Source of the DNA: Planctomyces sp. SH-PL62
GTDB lineage: Bacteria; Planctomycetota; Planctomycetia; Isosphaerales; Isosphaeraceae
Assembly: GCF_001610895.1 (NCBI RefSeq)
Contig: NZ_CP011273.1
Span: 744,001 to 808,000, forward strand
Length of the DNA stretch: 64,000 nucleotides
Direction of reading: 5' to 3'
In this document: positions 48,663-56,614 of the stretch, one piece after another
Position numbering within the stretch: the first letter of the stretch is position 1
How the letters are laid out: every line of letters begins with the position of its first letter
The notes under the pieces: model-generated
Databases searched by the model: none
The model's input: only the letters and a program-made list of their open reading frames with translations
Told to the model about the DNA's origin: nothing
Translations under genes and position numbers: made by a program

Positions 48663-50387
48663 TCAAGGCGCAGGCGATGGCTGCGTCGACTCGTTGGGCG
48701 AGGCCGACGCGCCGGGCGCCGGTTCGGAGGGGCCGAACGTGAAGCTTTTGATGATCGATTCCGCCTGGTCCCGGAACGGGACGTGGGGATCGCGAGTCGT
48801 CATGGCCGTCACGATCAGGGTTTCATTGCGGGTGAACTGGACGATGTAGCGATCCAGATAGATCCGGTTGCCCCGGACCGCCGGAGCCGCGCCGGCGGGC
48901 TTCAGGGCGGCCTCGATCCGGTAGACCTTGCGTGCCAGCGGGCCCCAGACGTCCTCCTTCAACCAGCCGGAGTCGCCCATCAGGACTTCCTGGCCCTGGG
49001 CCCGCCACTGCTCGGCGAGCGCCTTGCGCTGCTCTTGCGGGTCGGTGACGAGGCGGTCCTGCGAGGCGTCGCCGGACTTGGCCGCGAGGGCGATCGAGAT
49101 CACATCCTGGCCGTCGAACCGGCGGTCGACCAGGTCGACGCCTCCTTCGGGGTAGGCTCGCGCGATCCGAAGCCCCTGGGGATGGGCCAGGTGGAACCGG
49201 CCCTCGGGATCGTCGTACGTCACCCAGGTATGGGCCTCGTCGTCGGGGGGGGCGTCGGGGGCCACCAGGGGGAGCGTCGCCTCGGGTCCCATCGCCGACG
49301 GCCCGACTCGACGCGCGACGATCAACTCGCGCGTTTGCGTCTGGTTGAGCCGACCGGTCTCGTCGTCGGGCAGGGGGGTGGTCAGGACTTCCGCCATCCG
49401 AATCTCGGAGATCCAGCCTTCGGCGTCGATGACCCCCGCCTGCTCCCGAGGCTCGGGGACGGCGGGCTGGGCCGGTTTGGCGGGAGCGAAGACGAAGTGG
49501 ACTCGCGCATTCATCGCGACCGGTCCATCCAGCACGTTGAGCTGCCCCTTGACCTCGAAGACCGCCGTCATCGTGCCGGCGTCGGTCGCCGAGCCGCGGA
49601 CGTCGGTCAACTCGGCCTCCACGTCGTAGCCATCCTCCAGGGGCGTTTCGCCCAGCAGGACCGCCACTGAAGACCTGGGGACGGGCCAGTGATCGCCGAC
49701 CCGACGGGGAGTGGTCGGCAGCAGGGTCGCGAGTTGGGGGAGGAACGGGTTTCTGGTGATCCGATCGAACTCGACCTGACGGAGCACCCGACCGTCGGTC
49801 AAGTTATAGAGCTCGATGGGCTTGCCGGGCTTGAGCCGATACCAGAGGCTCAACTGCTCCAGCAGTTTGGGGTTCTGGTACTGCCGGCGCATCGGCAGGG
49901 TCGTGGTGATCAGGGCGCGATCGTACCGCCGCACCACGTCGGTGGCCGTCCGGTTCGGGGCCGCCTTCATGACGCGCTCGGTGTAGATCGACTGGAGCGT
50001 GGTCTCGGCGCGGTCGGGGGCGCCCTGGGGCTTTTCGCGGGCCACCTTGATCTTCTCGCGGACGCCCACCTGATACTGGGTCATCCATTCCGGGCGCGTC
50101 GGATCGGGGGTCTCGGTATATCGCTCGCCGAAGCGATATCGAAGGCTCAACGGCTGGACCTCGCCCTGCTTGGCCGCGTCGTCGGGGGACTCCGCGGTCG
50201 GTGCGGCCTCGTCGGCCGCCGGGACGGGAGTCGAAGCCGGCTCAGGGGCCTGCGCGGTCGCGAAGCTTGGGTGGAGGCCGACGACCAGGACCCAGGAGAA
50301 AGCCGTCGTCAGGAATCCCCAGGAGTTGCCCGCGCCTCGTCCCGGCTCGCGCCGGAACGGCCCCCGTCTTCGCGTCTCGCCCATCAT
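48663..50387 (-). CDS. Exported hypothetical protein with PsbP-like C-terminus
   Basis: 574 residues from the ATG at 50387 with GAAGGGA upstream. A long signal/anchor (FLTTAFSWVLVVGLHPSFATA) is followed by a Pro/Ala-rich linker. A middle domain (~85-390) contains YRFGERYTETPDPTRPEWM and a beta-rich core. The C-terminal ~150 residues, RFHLAHPQGLRIARAYPEGGVDL and ETLIVTAMTTRDPHVPFRDQAESIIKSFTF, look like the Mog1/PsbP-type fold. The neighbour upstream (50509-51912) has the same layout, so they are probably paralogues in one operon. Function unknown. Confidence 0.65.
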   Translation of the reverse strand: MMGETRRRGPFRREPGRGAGNSWGFLTTAFSWVLVVGLHPSFATAQAPEPASTPVPAADEAAPTAESPDDAAKQGEVQPLSLRYRFGERYTETPDPTRPEWMTQYQVGVREKIKVAREKPQGAPDRAETTLQSIYTERVMKAAPNRTATDVVRRYDRALITTTLPMRRQYQNPKLLEQLSLWYRLKPGKPIELYNLTDGRVLRQVEFDRITRNPFLPQLATLLPTTPRRVGDHWPVPRSSVAVLLGETPLEDGYDVEAELTDVRGSATDAGTMTAVFEVKGQLNVLDGPVAMNARVHFVFAPAKPAQPAVPEPREQAGVIDAEGWISEIRMAEVLTTPLPDDETGRLNQTQTRELIVARRVGPSAMGPEATLPLVAPDAPPDDEAHTWVTYDDPEGRFHLAHPQGLRIARAYPEGGVDLVDRRFDGQDVISIALAAKSGDASQDRLVTDPQEQRKALAEQWRAQGQEVLMGDSGWLKEDVWGPLARKVYRIEAALKPAGAAPAVRGNRIYLDRYIVQFTRNETLIVTAMTTRDPHVPFRDQAESIIKSFTFGPSEPAPGASASPNESTQPSPAP

Positions 50388-50508
50388 GAATGGCGTCCCT
50401 TCATGTTGAAGAACCCGGTGTCGTCGGGATCGCTTCCCCCGTTCCACCATAGCTTTCCGGTCCAGCTCGGGGGAACCCCACGGGTTTTTTCATGGGCGGG
50501 ACCGCCGT

Positions 50509-51912
50509 TCAACGCCCCACGGCAAGCGGCGGATCGTTCCACTGGAGCGATCCGATGATCCTCTCGTCTTCCTGGCCGAAGGCCGGCGCGTCGGAGTCGA
50601 TGAGGGTGAACGTCGCCAGGAGTTGCTCCCCCCGGGGGCTGGCGATGAGGTAGTAGTACCACAGGAGCCCCAGGTCGTCCTGGCGGCCCTGGACGCCCAG
50701 CTTGTAGCGGAAGCCTCCTTCCGGGTCGCCCTCGACCTCCCCCGCGCCGAGGAACTGACTGAAGCGGCCCTTGAGCGCGCGCTTCACGTCCTCGCGGAAC
50801 GACTCGACGTCCTGGTGCTTCCCCTTACCGGCCGGAGGGCCGTAAACGAGGTTGCACTGGGCCGTCACCCGGCCCTTCTCATACCGTTTGAGAACCACCA
50901 GCTTCTTGTCGTCCCAGTAGATGTGCCAGTTTCGCTCGTGGAGCAAGTTGTAGCGACCGTCCGGCGCGATCAGCTGGAGCAGCAGCCTCCCCGGCGTCAG
51001 ATCGGGGGAAAGCGCCGCCAGCGAGGCGTCGGACAGTTCCGAAGGAACCTCGATCCCCGCGCGCCGGGCGATCGTCAACGTGCTCTTGAGATCGAGCCCC
51101 GCCTCGACCGCCCCCGGCTGGCGACTCTCCGTCCGGTTCAACTCCAGGCCGTCGATCAACCCCGCCTTGCGGTCGAAGGTGAACCAGCCCTCGCAGGTCA
51201 AGGTCCCCTCGGCACCCAGGACCGAACCTTTGACTTCCCCCTTGAGGCCGATCCTGACGCGATCGTCGGCCACCGACTCGATCACGCCTTCGACCGTCGT
51301 CGAGGTGATCGCGTCATATCCGGTGAGGGCCCAGAGGGCCGATTTGCGGATCGGCCAGGACTTGCCCTGAGCCGTCGGCCCCTCGGGCAAGAGATCCGTC
51401 AGGCAGAGCGAATCGCCCAGGCTCTCCACCAACTCCAACTCGCCGCGAGTCAGCGAGCCGGAAGGGCTCGCCACCGTCACGGCGCCGTCCGGGACGCGCC
51501 GCTCGGCGATCAGAAGCGACAACTCCGGGCGCAGCTCCAGGGCCGCGGGCCGGACCTCGCCGTTGATCGCCGAGGCCGCCTGACGCACCAGCCGCAGCGA
51601 ACGCCGCTGCGGTCCCTTCAGGAGCCGCTCCCGATAAACCATCCGGGTCTGGATGTCGACGTCCAGCGGCTTGGGCATCTTCGCGTCGGGCGTCATCGCC
51701 TCGGGAGGAAGCGGCGGCCGGTACAGCCCGCTCGCCTTCAATTCGATCCGGCAGGCGGTCACCTCGTCCGGGGACGCGGTTTCCTCAAGGACGATCGCAT
51801 CATCCACGACCGATCCGAAGACCCCCGTCCATGCCCCGGCGACCAGCGCGATTCCCAGGAATCGCGCCGGCAGCCGCTTCAGTTCGCTCGCCCGAAGCCC
51901 GCTCCGGCCCAT
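50509..51912 (-). CDS. Exported hypothetical protein, paralogue of the downstream gene
   Basis: 467 residues from the ATG at 51912 with GGGAGG seven bases upstream. A signal peptide (ARFLGIALVAGAWTGVFGS) is followed by a middle domain with WFTFDRKAGLIDGLELNRTESRQ and then a C-terminal segment RYNLLHERNWHIYWDDKKLVVLKR ... EQLLATFTLIDSDAPAFGQEDERIIGSLQW. Its domain order and several phrases parallel the 574-residue protein downstream, and both are on the minus strand 121 bases apart. They likely form an operon of two duplicated exported proteins. No family name can be given. Confidence 0.65.
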   Translation of the reverse strand: MGRSGLRASELKRLPARFLGIALVAGAWTGVFGSVVDDAIVLEETASPDEVTACRIELKASGLYRPPLPPEAMTPDAKMPKPLDVDIQTRMVYRERLLKGPQRRSLRLVRQAASAINGEVRPAALELRPELSLLIAERRVPDGAVTVASPSGSLTRGELELVESLGDSLCLTDLLPEGPTAQGKSWPIRKSALWALTGYDAITSTTVEGVIESVADDRVRIGLKGEVKGSVLGAEGTLTCEGWFTFDRKAGLIDGLELNRTESRQPGAVEAGLDLKSTLTIARRAGIEVPSELSDASLAALSPDLTPGRLLLQLIAPDGRYNLLHERNWHIYWDDKKLVVLKRYEKGRVTAQCNLVYGPPAGKGKHQDVESFREDVKRALKGRFSQFLGAGEVEGDPEGGFRYKLGVQGRQDDLGLLWYYYLIASPRGEQLLATFTLIDSDAPAFGQEDERIIGSLQWNDPPLAVGR

Positions 51913-52637
51913 CTTCGACCTCCCCCGGCGGACGTCCGCGATCCGTTCCGGAAAATTCTCGACCGATCCATGAAGGGTCCGCCCGGCGAAACCCGCGACC
52001 ATTATGGGGAGCAGCCACTGCCTGTCAATTTCGGGCCGTCGCCCGGATTTCCGACTTCGCACGGCCCCGCTCCCCCAAGCGTTCCGACCACGCTTGCAAG
52101 AATTCCGATGATCCGACGAATGACTTCCCATTTCCGTGTCCCAGACCCGGCGGCCCCCCGTCTTCCCAGATGATCAACCCGGTGGAGGCGGTAACCAGGG
52201 GAAAACCAGCGAACACGAAGTCCCATTCTTTCGTCTGGTCAGACAGAGCCATCGCATCGCCACCCCTCGACCGCAAGGATTTGGACCTCGGTACAGGATT
52301 TGCAAGATTCCGGGCTAGATATCTGAAAGGAGGAGCGCGGCGACCCTGGACCACGACCGGATCTTTCATCGATAAGAACGATCCTCGCGAAAATATCGAT
52401 CACTATCCGCGGGACGAACGTATTAGAGAGTGTGATGTGTCCGAAGATCGCGAACGCGGAACATCCTGATCGGTCCACCGAGGTGGTTGGGCACGCTACG
52501 GCGGTTTATCGCGAACGTCGCCCTGGGCGGGTTGATCGCGACCAATAATAGTGGCCGGGTGGATGCACGGCCGAATCGGTAAATCGACGACGATTTGGAG
52601 TGGAAATCGTCCAGGTTTTCCTTCGCGGAGGTGGGAT
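51913..52637. other. Long leader/intergenic region before the sigma factor gene
   Basis: 725 bases, less GC-biased than the rest of the window, so most likely a divergent promoter region. No gene, tRNA or hairpin with a T-run was found. It would serve the sigma factor gene on one side and the exported protein gene on the other. Confidence 0.5.
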
Positions 52638-54317
52638 ATGGGACGAATGTACTGCCACCCCGCGATGAAGCAACTCAAGGACCAGCAAACGCGATACGCT
52701 CCCCGAGAGCGGCGGCTCGAACAAGTTGAACGGGCCGAGCAACTCCTGGGCGAGATCGAGCAGACCAAACGCTACCCCTACGACTACCTCTGCTTCCGCA
52801 TCACCGGCTTCCGGCCCGACAACGGGTCGGTCCTGATGCTGGAGGGGGACGAGGCGCGACGCGACCTCCGGCAGTTTGTGGAGGATCTCTCGGCGACGAT
52901 CCGGCAACCGGTCGAGCAGGCGGCCGAACCGGTGCTAACCGTCGACGAGGTGAGCAAGAGATTCAACGTCTCCACGCGGACGGTGACGCGCTGGCGACGA
53001 CAGGGCCTGGTGGCACGTCGCTTCGTGATCGACGGGCGGGCCAAAGTCGGATTTCTGGAATCCAGCCTTCAACGGTTCGTGGCCGAGCATCGCGGCCAGG
53101 TGGAACGTGGCTCGAAATTTCGGCAACTGACCGACGCGGAACGCGATGAAATCATCCGCCGCGCCCGTCGCATGTCGCAATTTCGGTCGGGCGAGGTCGG
53201 CCTGATCGAAGTCGCGCGGAGGATCGCTAGGAAAATGGCACGCTCGACCGAGACGGTGAGACTAACCCTCAAGGCGTACGATCGCGAACATCCGGATCGG
53301 GCGATCTTCGGCCCCTCCACGACGCCGCTCGACGACGACATGAAGGCCAAGATCTATCTTCGACACCGCATGGGCGTCTCCGCCGAGAACCTGGCGGTCG
53401 AGTCCGGCCGCACGCGATCCAGCATCTATCGCATCATCAACGAGGTCCGCGCAAAGCGGATCCTCGAGACCAAACTCGAATTCATCGGCAACGACACGTT
53501 CGCGGAGCCCAAGGCCAAGGCCGTGATCCTGGCCCCCCTCCCCGCGCCCGCGGACGGTAAGGCCCCGCGCCGGCCCAAAGCCCCCAAGGGACTGCCGCCT
53601 TACCTCGCCAGCCTGTACGAAGTGCCGCTCCTGGACCGCGAACAGGAAGCCCATTTGTTCCGCCAGATGAACTATCTGAAGAGCGAAGCCGTCAAGCTCC
53701 GCGAGAAGCTCGACCCGGCCAAGGCCAAAACCGCCGCCCTTGATAAGATCGACGCCCTCCAGGAACAGGCCCTGGCCGTCAAGAACCAGATCATTCGCGC
53801 CAACCTGCGGCTCGTCGTCTCGATCGCCAAGCGACACGTCGGACCTTCGAACAACTTCTTCGAGCTGGTCTCCGACGGCAATATGAGCCTCATCCGCGCC
53901 GTCGAAAAGTTCGACTACGCCCGAGGCAACAAATTCAGCACCTACGCCTCGTGGGCGATCATGAAGAACTACGCCCGGACCATCCCCGAAGAGAATTACC
54001 GCCGTGATCGGTTCGTCACCGGCCACGAGGAGATGTTCGAAGCCGCCGCCGACAACCGAATCGACGAGCACGAATACGAAAGCGCCCTGAAGCGCATGCA
54101 AGAGGCGATCCGAGGCATGCTCGACCGACTGGACGATCGCGAGAAGCTGATCATCACCAGTCGGTTCGGACTCGGCGGCACTTCCGAGCGGACCCTGGAA
54201 CAGCTCGGCCGCGAACTCGGCATCACCAAGGAACGCGTCCGCCAGATCGAATCCCGAGGCGTCGACAAGCTCCGCCGAATCGCCGGCGAACAGAAACTCG
54301 ACCTCCCGATGCTCTGA
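52638..54317 (+). CDS. Sigma-70 family factor with N-terminal helix-turn-helix extension
   Basis: 559 residues from the ATG at 52638, with GGAGGTG six bases upstream. The C-terminal part is a group 1/2-type sigma factor: region 1.2 (LPPYLASLYEVPLLDREQEA, ~320-340), region 2 (NLRLVVSIAKRHVG ... RGNKFSTYASWAIMKNYAR, ~388-442), a short region 3 and region 4 (TLEQLGRELGITKERVRQIESRGVDKLR, ~520-550). The first ~310 residues are not a normal region 1.1. They contain VLTVDEVSKRFNVSTRTVTRWRRQGL (MerR/excisionase-like HTH, ~100-125) and a second HTH-like stretch ([24 protein letters not shown], ~195-220), plus SAENLAVESGRTRSSIYRIINEV (~255-280). This is probably a global regulator. Confidence 0.88.
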   Translation: MGRMYCHPAMKQLKDQQTRYAPRERRLEQVERAEQLLGEIEQTKRYPYDYLCFRITGFRPDNGSVLMLEGDEARRDLRQFVEDLSATIRQPVEQAAEPVLTVDEVSKRFNVSTRTVTRWRRQGLVARRFVIDGRAKVGFLESSLQRFVAEHRGQVERGSKFRQLTDAERDEIIRRARRMSQFRSGEVGLIEVARRIARKMARSTETVRLTLKAYDREHPDRAIFGPSTTPLDDDMKAKIYLRHRMGVSAENLAVESGRTRSSIYRIINEVRAKRILETKLEFIGNDTFAEPKAKAVILAPLPAPADGKAPRRPKAPKGLPPYLASLYEVPLLDREQEAHLFRQMNYLKSEAVKLREKLDPAKAKTAALDKIDALQEQALAVKNQIIRANLRLVVSIAKRHVGPSNNFFELVSDGNMSLIRAVEKFDYARGNKFSTYASWAIMKNYARTIPEENYRRDRFVTGHEEMFEAAADNRIDEHEYESALKRMQEAIRGMLDRLDDREKLIITSRFGLGGTSERTLEQLGRELGITKERVRQIESRGVDKLRRIAGEQKLDLPML

Positions 54318-54649: not shown

Positions 54650-54677
54650 TTGAAACCGGTAGGCCGCCCGATATAAT
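54650..54677 (+). promoter_or_regulatory. Promoter of the tRNA-tuf cluster
   Basis: TTGAAA (54650-54655), a 16-base spacer and a perfect TATAAT (54672-54677), 24 bases before the tRNA-Thr. Probably the main promoter of the cluster. Confidence 0.85.
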
Positions 54678-54700: not shown

Positions 54701-54773
54701 GCTGGCGTAGCTCAACCGGCAGAGCAACGGTTTTGTAAACCGTAGGTTGTGAGTTCGACTCTCACCGCCAGCT
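54701..54773 (+). tRNA. tRNA-Thr (TGT)
   Basis: Acceptor GCTGGCG/CGCCAGC; anticodon stem ACGGT/ACCGT around TTTGTAA; anticodon TGT; T-arm GTGAG-TTCGACT-CTCAC. It is the first gene of the tRNA-tuf cluster. Confidence 0.96.
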
Positions 54774-54851
54774 CTACTGGATGGAGCTTCTCAAGTGGTA
54801 GGATCCCCGGACGGCACGATTCTCGGATCGCGACGGCAGGGACGGAATGAC

Positions 54852-54933
54852 GGGTGGATACCCAAGTGGCTAAAGGGGCCAGACTGTAAATCTGGTGGTT
54901 CTACCTTCGCAGGTTCGAATCCTGCTCCACCCA
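54852..54933 (+). tRNA. tRNA-Tyr (GTA)
   Basis: Acceptor GGGTGGA/TCCACCC; anticodon stem CCAGA/TCTGG around CTGTAAA, anticodon GTA; long class II variable arm as expected for bacterial tRNA-Tyr; discriminator A. Confidence 0.96.
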
Positions 54934-55008
54934 CTCGATGTGAATCGTCGTCAGCTAGGAAGGGAGCTCGAGGGACAAAGAGAAATTCAGCCGGGATGAG
55001 GGTTCTAC

Positions 55009-55079
55009 GCGGGTGTAGCTCAATGGTAGAGTCCCTGCCTTCCAAGCAGGCTGTGTGGGTTCGATTCCCATCACCCGCT
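55009..55079 (+). tRNA. tRNA-Gly (TCC)
   Basis: Acceptor GCGGGTG/CACCCGC; anticodon stem CCTGC/GCAGG around CTTCCAA; anticodon TCC; discriminator U. Confidence 0.96.
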
Positions 55080-55169
55080 CTGCTCCGGCGAAATCGACCG
55101 ATCCGACGACTCAGGTCGCCGGGTCCATGCGAGCTCTTTTCCTCACGCTAAGACGTTCATCGCGAACAC

Positions 55170-55242
<73 letters not shown>

Positions 55243-55402: not shown

Positions 55403-56614
55403 ATGGCCAAGGAAACTTTCACCAGAACCAAGCCTCACGTCAACGTGGGCACGATCGGGCACATCGACCACGGCAAGACCACGCTGACGGCCGCCCTGCT
55501 GGCTGTGCTGGCCGCGCGCGGTCAGGCCAAGAGCAAGTCGTACTCCGACATCGCCAAGGGCGGCACGGTCCGCGACGCCACCAAGACGGTGACGATCGCC
55601 GTCTCGCACGTCGAGTATGAGAGCGACAAGCGTCACTACGCTCACATCGACTGCCCGGGTCACGCCGACTACATCAAGAACATGATCACCGGCGCCGCCC
55701 AGATGGACGGGGCGATCCTGGTGGTCTCCGCGGCCGACGGCCCGATGCCTCAGACCCGCGAGCATATCCTTCTGGCTCGTCAGGTCGGCGTGCCGGCCCT
55801 GGTCGTGTTCCTCAACAAGATCGACCTGGTCGACGACGAGGAACTTCTGGAGCTGGTCGAGCTCGAGCTTCGCGAGATGCTCAGCCACTACAAGTTCCCC
55901 GGCGATGAGATCCCCATCGTCCGCGGCAGTAGCCGGCCGGCCCTCGAGAATCCCGCCGATCCGGTCGCGGCCAAGCCGATCCTCGACCTCGTCGCGGCGA
56001 TGGACGAGTACATCCCGGACCCGGTCCGTGAGATCGACAAGCCGTTCCTGATGCCGATCGAAGACGTTTTCTCGATCAAGGGTCGCGGCACCGTGGGCAC
56101 CGGCCGCGTCGAGCGTGGTCGAGTCAAGGTGGGCGAGGCCATCGAGATCATCGGTTTCGGCGTCAAGAAGCCGACCACCGTCACCGGCGTCGAGATGTTC
56201 CAGAAGACGCTCGACGAAGGCGTCGCTGGCGACAACGTCGGCGTTCTCCTCCGCGGCGTGGAAAAGAACGATCTCGAACGCGGGCAGGTGCTATGCAAGC
56301 CGGGCTCGATCACGCCCCACACGAAGTTCGAGGCCGAGGTCTACGTCCTCAGCAAAGAAGAGGGCGGACGCCACACCCCGTTCTTCAAGGGTTACCGTCC
56401 CCAGTTCTACATCCGCACCACCGACGTCACCGGTTCGATCCTCAACCTGCTGTCCGAAGACGGCAGCGAGGCCGAGATGTGCATGCCGGGCGACAACATC
56501 AAGATGACGGTCGAGCTGGGCAGCCCGATCGCCATGGAAGATGCTCTCCGCTTCGCCATCCGCGAAGGCGGCAAGACGGTCGGTGCCGGCGTCGTGACCA
56601 AGATCCTCGAGTGA
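55403..56614 (+). CDS. tuf: Elongation factor Tu
   Basis: 403 residues. P-loop GHIDHGKT at 19-26, DCPGH and NKID are normal, and domains II and III are intact ([34 protein letters not shown]). The switch I/G2 element is unusual: where EF-Tu normally has RGITI, this protein reads K61-T62-V63-T64-I65 in [14 protein letters not shown]. The magnesium-coordinating Thr64 is kept, but the Arg, Gly and Ile before it are not. It carries aminoacyl-tRNA to the ribosome. It follows the four-tRNA cluster, the classic tufB-type context, and is followed by rpmG. Confidence 0.96.

Follow-up and report, generated by a model that had tools for sequence, protein, structure and literature searches.

To gain extra specificity, sigma factors normally depend on activators that are separate proteins. 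A gene in the window (the whole 64,000-nucleotide stretch of DNA analyzed here) raises the question of whether one protein may merge the jobs of sigma factor and gene regulator. A first-pass annotation had proposed a sigma-70 factor headed by helix-turn-helix (HTH) segments through which it could select promoters. A conserved sigma factor with its own activator-like domains and without sigma3 would test which promoter contacts are needed. An HTH-headed sigma factor would also bear on the evolution of promoter selectivity, and it would be a candidate global regulator for the planctomycetes, a group in which transcription control has received little attention. Literature searches of an open-access collection brought up no paper describing such an architecture. 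We estimate at roughly 0.6 the probability that the protein is an alternative sigma-70-family factor with a regulator-like DNA-binding head of its own, whose HTH domains add promoter contacts.

Domain architecture of the sigma-70-family protein

The gene occupies positions 52638 to 54317 on the forward strand (ATG at 52638, stop codon ending at 54317) and encodes a 559-amino-acid sigma-70-family factor with N-terminal HTH domains. A Shine-Dalgarno-like GGAGGTG, read directly from the sequence (52627 to 52633, forward strand), lies 4 nt 5′ of the ATG. About 318 residues precede region 1.2, so the N-terminal extension noted earlier is real. From the N terminus, and all on the forward strand, the protein comprises an acidic domain, NTD-A, with two long helices followed by two strand-helix units (residues 8 to 90; 52659 to 52907); a BldC/MerR-like winged HTH, HTH1 (residues 98 to 152; 52929 to 53093); a three-helix HTH, HTH2 (residues 163 to 217; 53124 to 53288); a second three-helix HTH of the HTH_29 type, HTH3 (residues 232 to 279; 53331 to 53474); and a linker with a conserved F288 and IL motif (residues 280 to 318; 53475 to 53591). 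The sigma half follows, with region 1.2 (residues 319 to 356; 53592 to 53705) assigned by alignment to SigA and by conservation, region 2 (residues 365 to 450; 53730 to 53987) with an altered region 2.4 (WAIMKNYAR), a short, acidic, disordered linker where sigma3 would be (residues 451 to 476; 53988 to 54065), and region 4 (residues 477 to 551; 54066 to 54290) with a group-1-like region 4.2 (TKERVRQIE).

A Pfam search of the protein returned HTH_17 at residues 99 to 151 (27.6 bits, cut-off 27), HTH_23 at 95 to 121 (36.6 bits, cut-off 24.6), and HTH_29 at 236 to 275 (35.8 bits, cut-off 28.1). Both Sigma70_r2 (PF04542, residues 386 to 441, 50.9 bits, cut-off 24) and Sigma70_r4 (PF04545, residues 495 to 546, 63.8 bits, cut-off 24.1) were recovered, placing the protein in the sigma-70 superfamily, and regions 1.1, 1.2, and 3 had no Pfam match in it. 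The HTH domains stand above chance, with HTH_17 found in 22 and HTH_29 in 19 of 24 aligned sequences, the window's included (E ≤ 0.01). All three segments named in the first-pass annotation are thereby accounted for: the MerR/excisionase-like HTH is borne out by the HTH_17 match and a BldC-like fold in the model, the second HTH-like segment corresponds in structure models to the three-helix unit HTH2, and the SxxNLAxxxG-type segment (S248 to G257) falls within the third HTH of the models. Three features described here go beyond that annotation: an acidic domain at the N terminus, class-wide conservation, and the gene neighborhood.

Evidence for predicted DNA binding by the N-terminal HTH domains

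AlphaFold models were built from eight sequences. The full-length model reached a pLDDT of 81.3 and a pTM of 0.43, and a model of residues 1 to 289 a pLDDT of 85.1 and a pTM of 0.55; with pTM this low, the arrangement of the domains is not readable from the models. Residues 8 to 90 were modeled as a helical domain with two short strands, and residues 451 to 477 as a low-confidence stretch. HTH1 matched BldC (6ama) by sequence (E = 5.8e-4), by profile (E = 0.0022), and by structure comparison (Z = 6.5, rmsd 2.5, 54 residues, 33% identity). The best structural match was the terminase small subunit 7lwr (Z = 7.2, rmsd 2.5, 53 residues, 23% identity); all Z scores were below 8, a middling range that is common among helical folds and is flagged by the tool. 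Foldseek with the N terminus returned nothing at E ≤ 0.001. MerR itself (PF00376) scored 21.5 bits on the protein against a cut-off of 28.2, which leaves HTH1 outside that Pfam family; HTH1 belongs with the HTH_17/BldC-like winged HTHs, having passed the Pfam cut-off and kept the DNA-contact residues.

Profile alignment places TVTRW of BldC over TisRW of HTH1 and, with structural numbering, BldC Arg30 over R118. According to the portion of the BldC study consulted here, Arg30 contacts a guanine and the R30A substitution essentially abolished DNA binding (PMC5859096). In an alignment of 115 family members, the top-residue frequency was 0.99 for T115 and 0.98 for R118 and W119 in HTH1, 0.97 to 0.98 for R202, E205, and R208, and 0.96 for R265 and R271; Y46 and D76 of NTD-A were nearly invariant. 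Averaged over domains, the same frequency was 0.58 to 0.69 for NTD-A and the HTHs, 0.78 for regions 1.2 and 2, and 0.64 for region 4. Net charge was positive in 114 of 115 sequences for HTH1 and in 106 of 115 for each of HTH2 and HTH3, as against 4 of 115 for NTD-A and 0 of 115 for the linker replacing sigma3. The conserved contact residues and the charge support the prediction that HTH1 to HTH3 are DNA-binding domains. With R118 aligned to the BldC specificity residue Arg30, it is plausible that promoter choice runs through the N-terminal HTHs. Up to three of them would contribute sequence-specific contacts to promoter DNA in the style of an activator fused to sigma, and the recognition helix of HTH1 would be inserted via R118 and W119, as that of BldC is with Arg30 and Trp31. 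The acidic NTD-A may, at a guess, hold back the HTHs or act on the DNA channel in a restraining way.

The head may instead be an autoinhibitory or sensor module that replaces region 1.1, its HTHs binding proteins or folding back on the sigma part while regions 2 and 4 alone choose the promoter. Sigma region 1.1 is acidic, like NTD-A, and the pTM of 0.55 leaves the domain arrangement unfixed. Two relatives, L040 (1039 to 2181, forward strand) and L041 (1474 to 2610, reverse strand), join NTD-A (53.2 and 49.1 bits) to a sigma half without Pfam HTHs between, so NTD-A can serve a sigma factor in their absence. Against these points stand the mostly basic charge of the HTHs, the retention of the recognition-helix residues listed above, and the absence of a profile relation between NTD-A and region 1.1, and we regard an autoinhibitory head as rather unlikely. 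The notion of NTD-A as a region 1.1 was rejected (hhalign probability 0.3%). Across the four N-terminal domains this probability ranged from 0.2 to 0.9%, so the reading that would have undone the earlier proposal, an N terminus that is a region 1.1 variant, fails by profile comparison. The place of region 1.1 is taken by three HTH domains, which show conservation, a mainly basic charge, and a confident fold in the model. We favor, as before, a DNA-binding head.

Several other origins for the head were considered. VIA-align suggested that HTH2 and HTH3 are a transposed sigma3-sigma4 pair (Z = 6.9, rmsd 20). Profiles spoke against this candidate, which was rejected: against an RpoD-like alignment the best hhalign probabilities were 5.0% for HTH2, 7.7% for HTH3, and 2.7% for the two together, with region 4 as a control at 99.5%. 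For HTH1 the probability rose to 59% at the region 4.2 end of the same alignment, which we read as generic HTH likeness because BldC fits better, though a distant relation between HTH1 and region 4.2 may exist. Matches to de novo design PPR proteins were set aside as repeat-summing artefacts. A mobile origin was likewise rejected, a phage search with the N terminus (E of 1e-3) and a plasmid search with the whole protein (E of 1e-20) both being empty.

A sigma core without sigma3 and with an altered region 2.4

The first-pass annotation had called regions 1.2 to 4 normal, which proved wrong on two counts: the protein has no Pfam region 3, and its region 2.4 has changed. An actinobacterial SigA aligned across regions 1.2, 2, and 4 in phmmer. 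The Pfam library that found no region 3 (PF04539) here recovered it in the RpoD of the same genome (80.7 bits) and in a second sigma factor (44.5 bits), so its absence is not a detection problem. That RpoD carries Pfam regions 1.1, 1.2, 2, 3, and 4, and the second sigma factor regions 1.2, 2, 3, and 4. Spacing tells the same story across the family, in which sigma3 is missing throughout: Y436 and L498 are 56 to 70 residues apart in the 115 members, and a regular expression common to both groups gave 59 to 73 residues in the family (107 of 115 matched) versus 122 to 126 in RpoD-like proteins (68 of 68). After FSTY the commonest reading was ATWWIRQAITRSI in RpoD-like sequences (35 of 68) and ASWAIMKNFARTI in the family (53 of 115). 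Region 1.1 (PF03979), at 65.2 bits in the genome's own RpoD, had no match in the protein.

In sigma-70 factors generally, the −10 element is recognized by the helix of region 2.4 and the −35 element by region 4.2. In the family, the −10-reading helix has changed from ATWWIRQAITR to, mostly, ASWAIMKN(F/Y)AR, losing the WW/RQ of groups 1 and 2. In region 4.2, by contrast, all 115 of 115 sequences carry E532, R533, R535, and Q536. Having lost sigma3 and changed its −10 reader, the factor would not have the specificity of a housekeeping sigma. Regions 1.2, 2, and 4 would dock the factor on core RNA polymerase and read the promoter, and from an altered region 2.4 combined with a group-1-like region 4.2 we predict recognition of a non-TATAAT −10 together with a TTGACA-like −35. 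More broadly, we infer that the protein binds RNA polymerase and DNA, uses a non-consensus −10, and plays an activator-like role.

The protein lacks the region 3 domain that defines groups 1, 2, and 3 and the region 1.1 that defines group 1. It is clearly a sigma-70 protein, yet departs in at least one defining feature from each of groups 1 to 4, which upholds the earlier view that its architecture is unlike that of standard sigma factors. A link to MZA defence (MzaA, NF041931) was rejected at 148 bits against a cut-off of 800, the best stretch (residues 343 to 449) lying in the sigma core.

Distribution, relatives, and gene neighborhood

Within the window's class, 387 of 397 sampled genomes had a match at E ≤ 1e-40 (336 of 339 among the high-quality ones); fragments or short paralogs may account for a few of these matches. 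A draw of 199 genomes from the phylum held 12 from the class, counting the window's own, and each of the 12 had a full-length match; other classes reached E ≤ 1e-40 in 16 of 187. A profile search for the same N-terminal architecture, a check proposed with the first-pass annotation, gave a single full match per genome in 21 genomes (that of the window and 20 relatives) together with three partial matches. Named orthologs from Bythopirellula, Pirellula, Planctomycetales, and Phycisphaerales place the family in the Planctomycetota, and the class sampled is presumably Planctomycetia. Among the matches listed in a contig scan, seven near-full-length ones and an eighth, aligning from residue 233, were titled planctomycetes or Phycisphaerae, and the other 72 loci aligned from residue 270 or later. 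A contig of a Phycisphaerae metagenome-assembled genome (L078) held a piece 66% identical, in its best segment, to part of residues 233 to 546, which may reflect transfer or a binning error; the other relative assigned to Phycisphaerae (L077) was more distant, at 31%.

Not every relative carries the full head. L209 and L210, two short paralogs that belong to genus g3 of family f2, begin to align inside HTH3, at residues 239 and 253, and NTD-A was not found in them; they look as if cut from a full-length copy. The existence of these paralogs and of L040 and L041 indicates that the HTHs are not required in every relative.

Downstream of the gene on the forward strand are a TTGAAA-N16-TATAAT promoter-like site (54650 to 54677), a cluster of tRNA-Thr, -Tyr, -Gly, and -Thr (54701 to 55242), and the conserved neighbor tuf, encoding EF-Tu (55403 to 56614; gene name assigned from the sequence), followed by what we take from the translations to be rpmG, secE, nusG, and ribosomal protein genes. 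The order sigma gene, tRNA-Thr, -Tyr, -Gly, -Thr, tuf was found within about 3.5 kb downstream of the gene at 30 of the 58 orthologous loci that represent the class, some of which end early; two additional fetched loci were short paralogs. Given the promoter-like site ahead of the tRNAs, the sigma gene and tuf need not share a transcript. On the other side of the sigma gene, and divergent from it, two adjacent reverse-strand open reading frames (48663 to 50450 and 50509 to 52131) have similar-looking C-terminal parts and, judged by eye, are perhaps tandem paralogs.

Its class-wide presence, and its position beside tuf at roughly half the loci sampled, would suit a reading of the protein as the lineage's housekeeping sigma factor or as an RpoD with a variant region 1.1. 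We consider this very improbable, given the separate, five-region RpoD in the same genome and the altered region 2.4. In a second tree, moreover, the family and its short relatives grouped into one clade (27 of 27), separate from RpoD and from the RpoD-like sigma factors of the genome (FastTree support 0.897); no such clade appeared in the first tree, which was midpoint-rooted and held one badly aligned extra sigma factor. The part of a Planctopirus limnophila study consulted here names the housekeeping sigma factor as essential (PMC10632474). In Rhodopirellula baltica, the consulted part of an expression study lists RB12251 as a 567-amino-acid "RNA polymerase specialized sigma factor" with a pI of 9.4, repressed in heat, cold, and salt alongside ribosomal genes and EF-Tu (PMC2754498). 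Orthologs in our sample of 58 had a median pI of 9.48 (range 6.8 to 10.4) and lengths of 553 to 565 amino acids. RB12251 thus fits in pI and lies just above the range in length, and we treat it as a lead to a possible R. baltica ortholog.

A promoter-like element upstream of the sigma gene

Counts of tetranucleotide pairs at fixed spacing, made in the DNA upstream of orthologs, uncovered a promoter-like element. In the window it is the dyad GATC-N17-CGTA, 240 bp 5′ of the ATG (52398 to 52422, forward strand). This form recurred upstream in five of six members of the genus, the window's included, with N16 in the sixth; in the window alone its 2 matches against 1.09 expected are not above chance. 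Across 30 discovery regions at the family level, the form GAAC-N17-CGTC was present in 19, compared with a top count of 8 for any pair at N17 spacing in five shuffles, and a further 83 upstream regions yielded 20 (mean 1.0 and maximum 4 in 20 shuffles). On the reverse strand it occurred in 0 of 30 and 1 of 83 of these regions, and elsewhere in 5 of 180 gene-body and 8 of 341 downstream segments. The mostly coding window itself held 16 copies versus 6.1 expected from shuffles, so shuffles understate the background and the reverse-strand, gene-body, and downstream controls are preferred; near-identical genomes among the upstream regions mean that the counts are not independent. No tested element was detected in 51 of 115 orthologs, 3 of which entered the comparison without upstream DNA. 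In 10 members of the window's family (among loci L052 to L069), the CGTC upstream of the ortholog is part of CGTCTGTTT. In several of these the stretch belongs to an inverted repeat of the form AAACGTCTGTTT...AAACAGACGTT, with variants, that may be an operator lying over the promoter.

GAAC paired with CGTC or CGTA at 16 to 18 bp is an ECF promoter pattern. An ECF sigma factor may therefore transcribe the sigma gene from this promoter and make the protein the second step of a sigma cascade. The strand- and spacing-specific placement of the element upstream of the sigma gene agrees with such a cascade, as do the Sigma70_r2 matches in the window's 6.8-Mb genome (56, of which 55 are over the cut-off). 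The loose pattern GCGAAC-N17-CGTC also exceeded its read-backwards control in four genomes (28 versus 13, 125 versus 21, 115 versus 38, and 101 versus 17), but these counts cover whole genomes irrespective of gene starts, with individual sites listed in part for two genomes. The excess in the mostly coding window further implies that part of the GAAC-N17-CGTC surplus is background. We regard a cascade as quite possible, at somewhat under even odds.

The element might also serve autoregulation, with the N-terminal HTHs, the sigma part, or both binding upstream of their own gene. The contrast between forward and reverse strands would suit this, and so would three long versions of the element, each seen at the sigma gene with no other site in the genomes tested: GCGAACTTTTTN12CGTC in 3 of 3 genomes, TTCGCATGCGAACTTTT with at most one mismatch in 7 of 10, and GCGAACN17CGTCTGTTT in 5 of 6. 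Because these genomes were picked for orthologs bearing the element or a variant of it, what carries information is the lack of any second site. The long patterns partly reflect the descent of a single promoter. In family f2, GAAC lies mostly inside the palindrome TTCGCATGCGAA (13 of 17 match it at 10 or more of 12 positions), with a T tract after it. The bare palindrome, with at most one mismatch, had 11 further sites, 1 or 2 in each of seven f2 genomes (1 in the read-backwards control), so other targets are possible; at nine of the 11 that were inspected, the T tract was absent in all. With its A-tract and T-tract the palindrome resembles, and possibly is, a terminator-like hairpin. A group-1-like region 4.2 should not read GAAC, and the element-free orthologs count against autoregulation as well. 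D117 of HTH1 marks all f2 members (17 of 17), but being family-wide its covariation with the palindrome is confounded by descent. Taken together, these observations make autoregulation doubtful. The boldest form of our preferred reading adds it to a class-wide sigma-plus-activator protein whose three N-terminal HTHs would stand in for sigma3 at the promoter, recognize a composite promoter of unusual length, and regulate the gene that encodes them by way of an upstream element dedicated to it; in its entirety we hold this to be unlikely.

Comparison with known systems

Among characterized sigma factors, RpoD/SigA of group 1 is nearest. Regions 1.2, 2, and 4 are shared, TKERVRQIE of the window's protein stands beside TRERVRQIE of the genome's own RpoD, and the best sequence and structure matches were SigA/HrdB-type chains; in contrast to these, the protein is without region 1.1 and sigma3, has an altered region 2.4, and carries a 318-residue, HTH-rich N terminus. 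ECF sigma factors (group 4) consist of regions 2 and 4 only, in about 200 amino acids, with a short linker and no sigma3. The lack of sigma3 and the short acidic linker between regions 2 and 4 recall this layout, but 559 amino acids, a region 1.2 (by alignment rather than Pfam), a group-1-like region 4.2, and N-terminal HTHs place the protein outside the ECF group. N-terminal extensions covered in the consulted part of an ECF review, with transmembrane helices and DUF2275 in ECF36, are unlike the HTH-headed layout (PMC8999054). Cyanobacterial sigma-70 factors with accessory domains share the plan of a sigma core plus an N-terminal accessory domain but belong to another lineage, and the portion of their description consulted here held no HTH accessory domain (PMC11119718).

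For the single domains, phage terminase small subunits (7lwr, 7lw0, and 6hn7, the last with a Foldseek probability of 0.97 and E = 0.56) share the fold of HTH1 and are DNA-packaging proteins without a sigma part. HTH2-HTH3 weakly resembles the bipartite DNA-binding domain of Tc3 transposase (1u78; E = 0.31, probability 0.60), and HTH3 resembles a resolvase HTH by profile (E = 0.022); these relations are statistically not firm, the folds being generic three-helix HTHs. A further parallel to HTH1 is BldC, the MerR-like winged HTH of Streptomyces, in which Arg30, Trp31, and Thr27 are the counterparts of R118, W119, and T115. BldC, in the consulted part of its description, is a free 68-residue protein (PMC5859096), whereas HTH1 is fused to a sigma factor together with two further HTHs.
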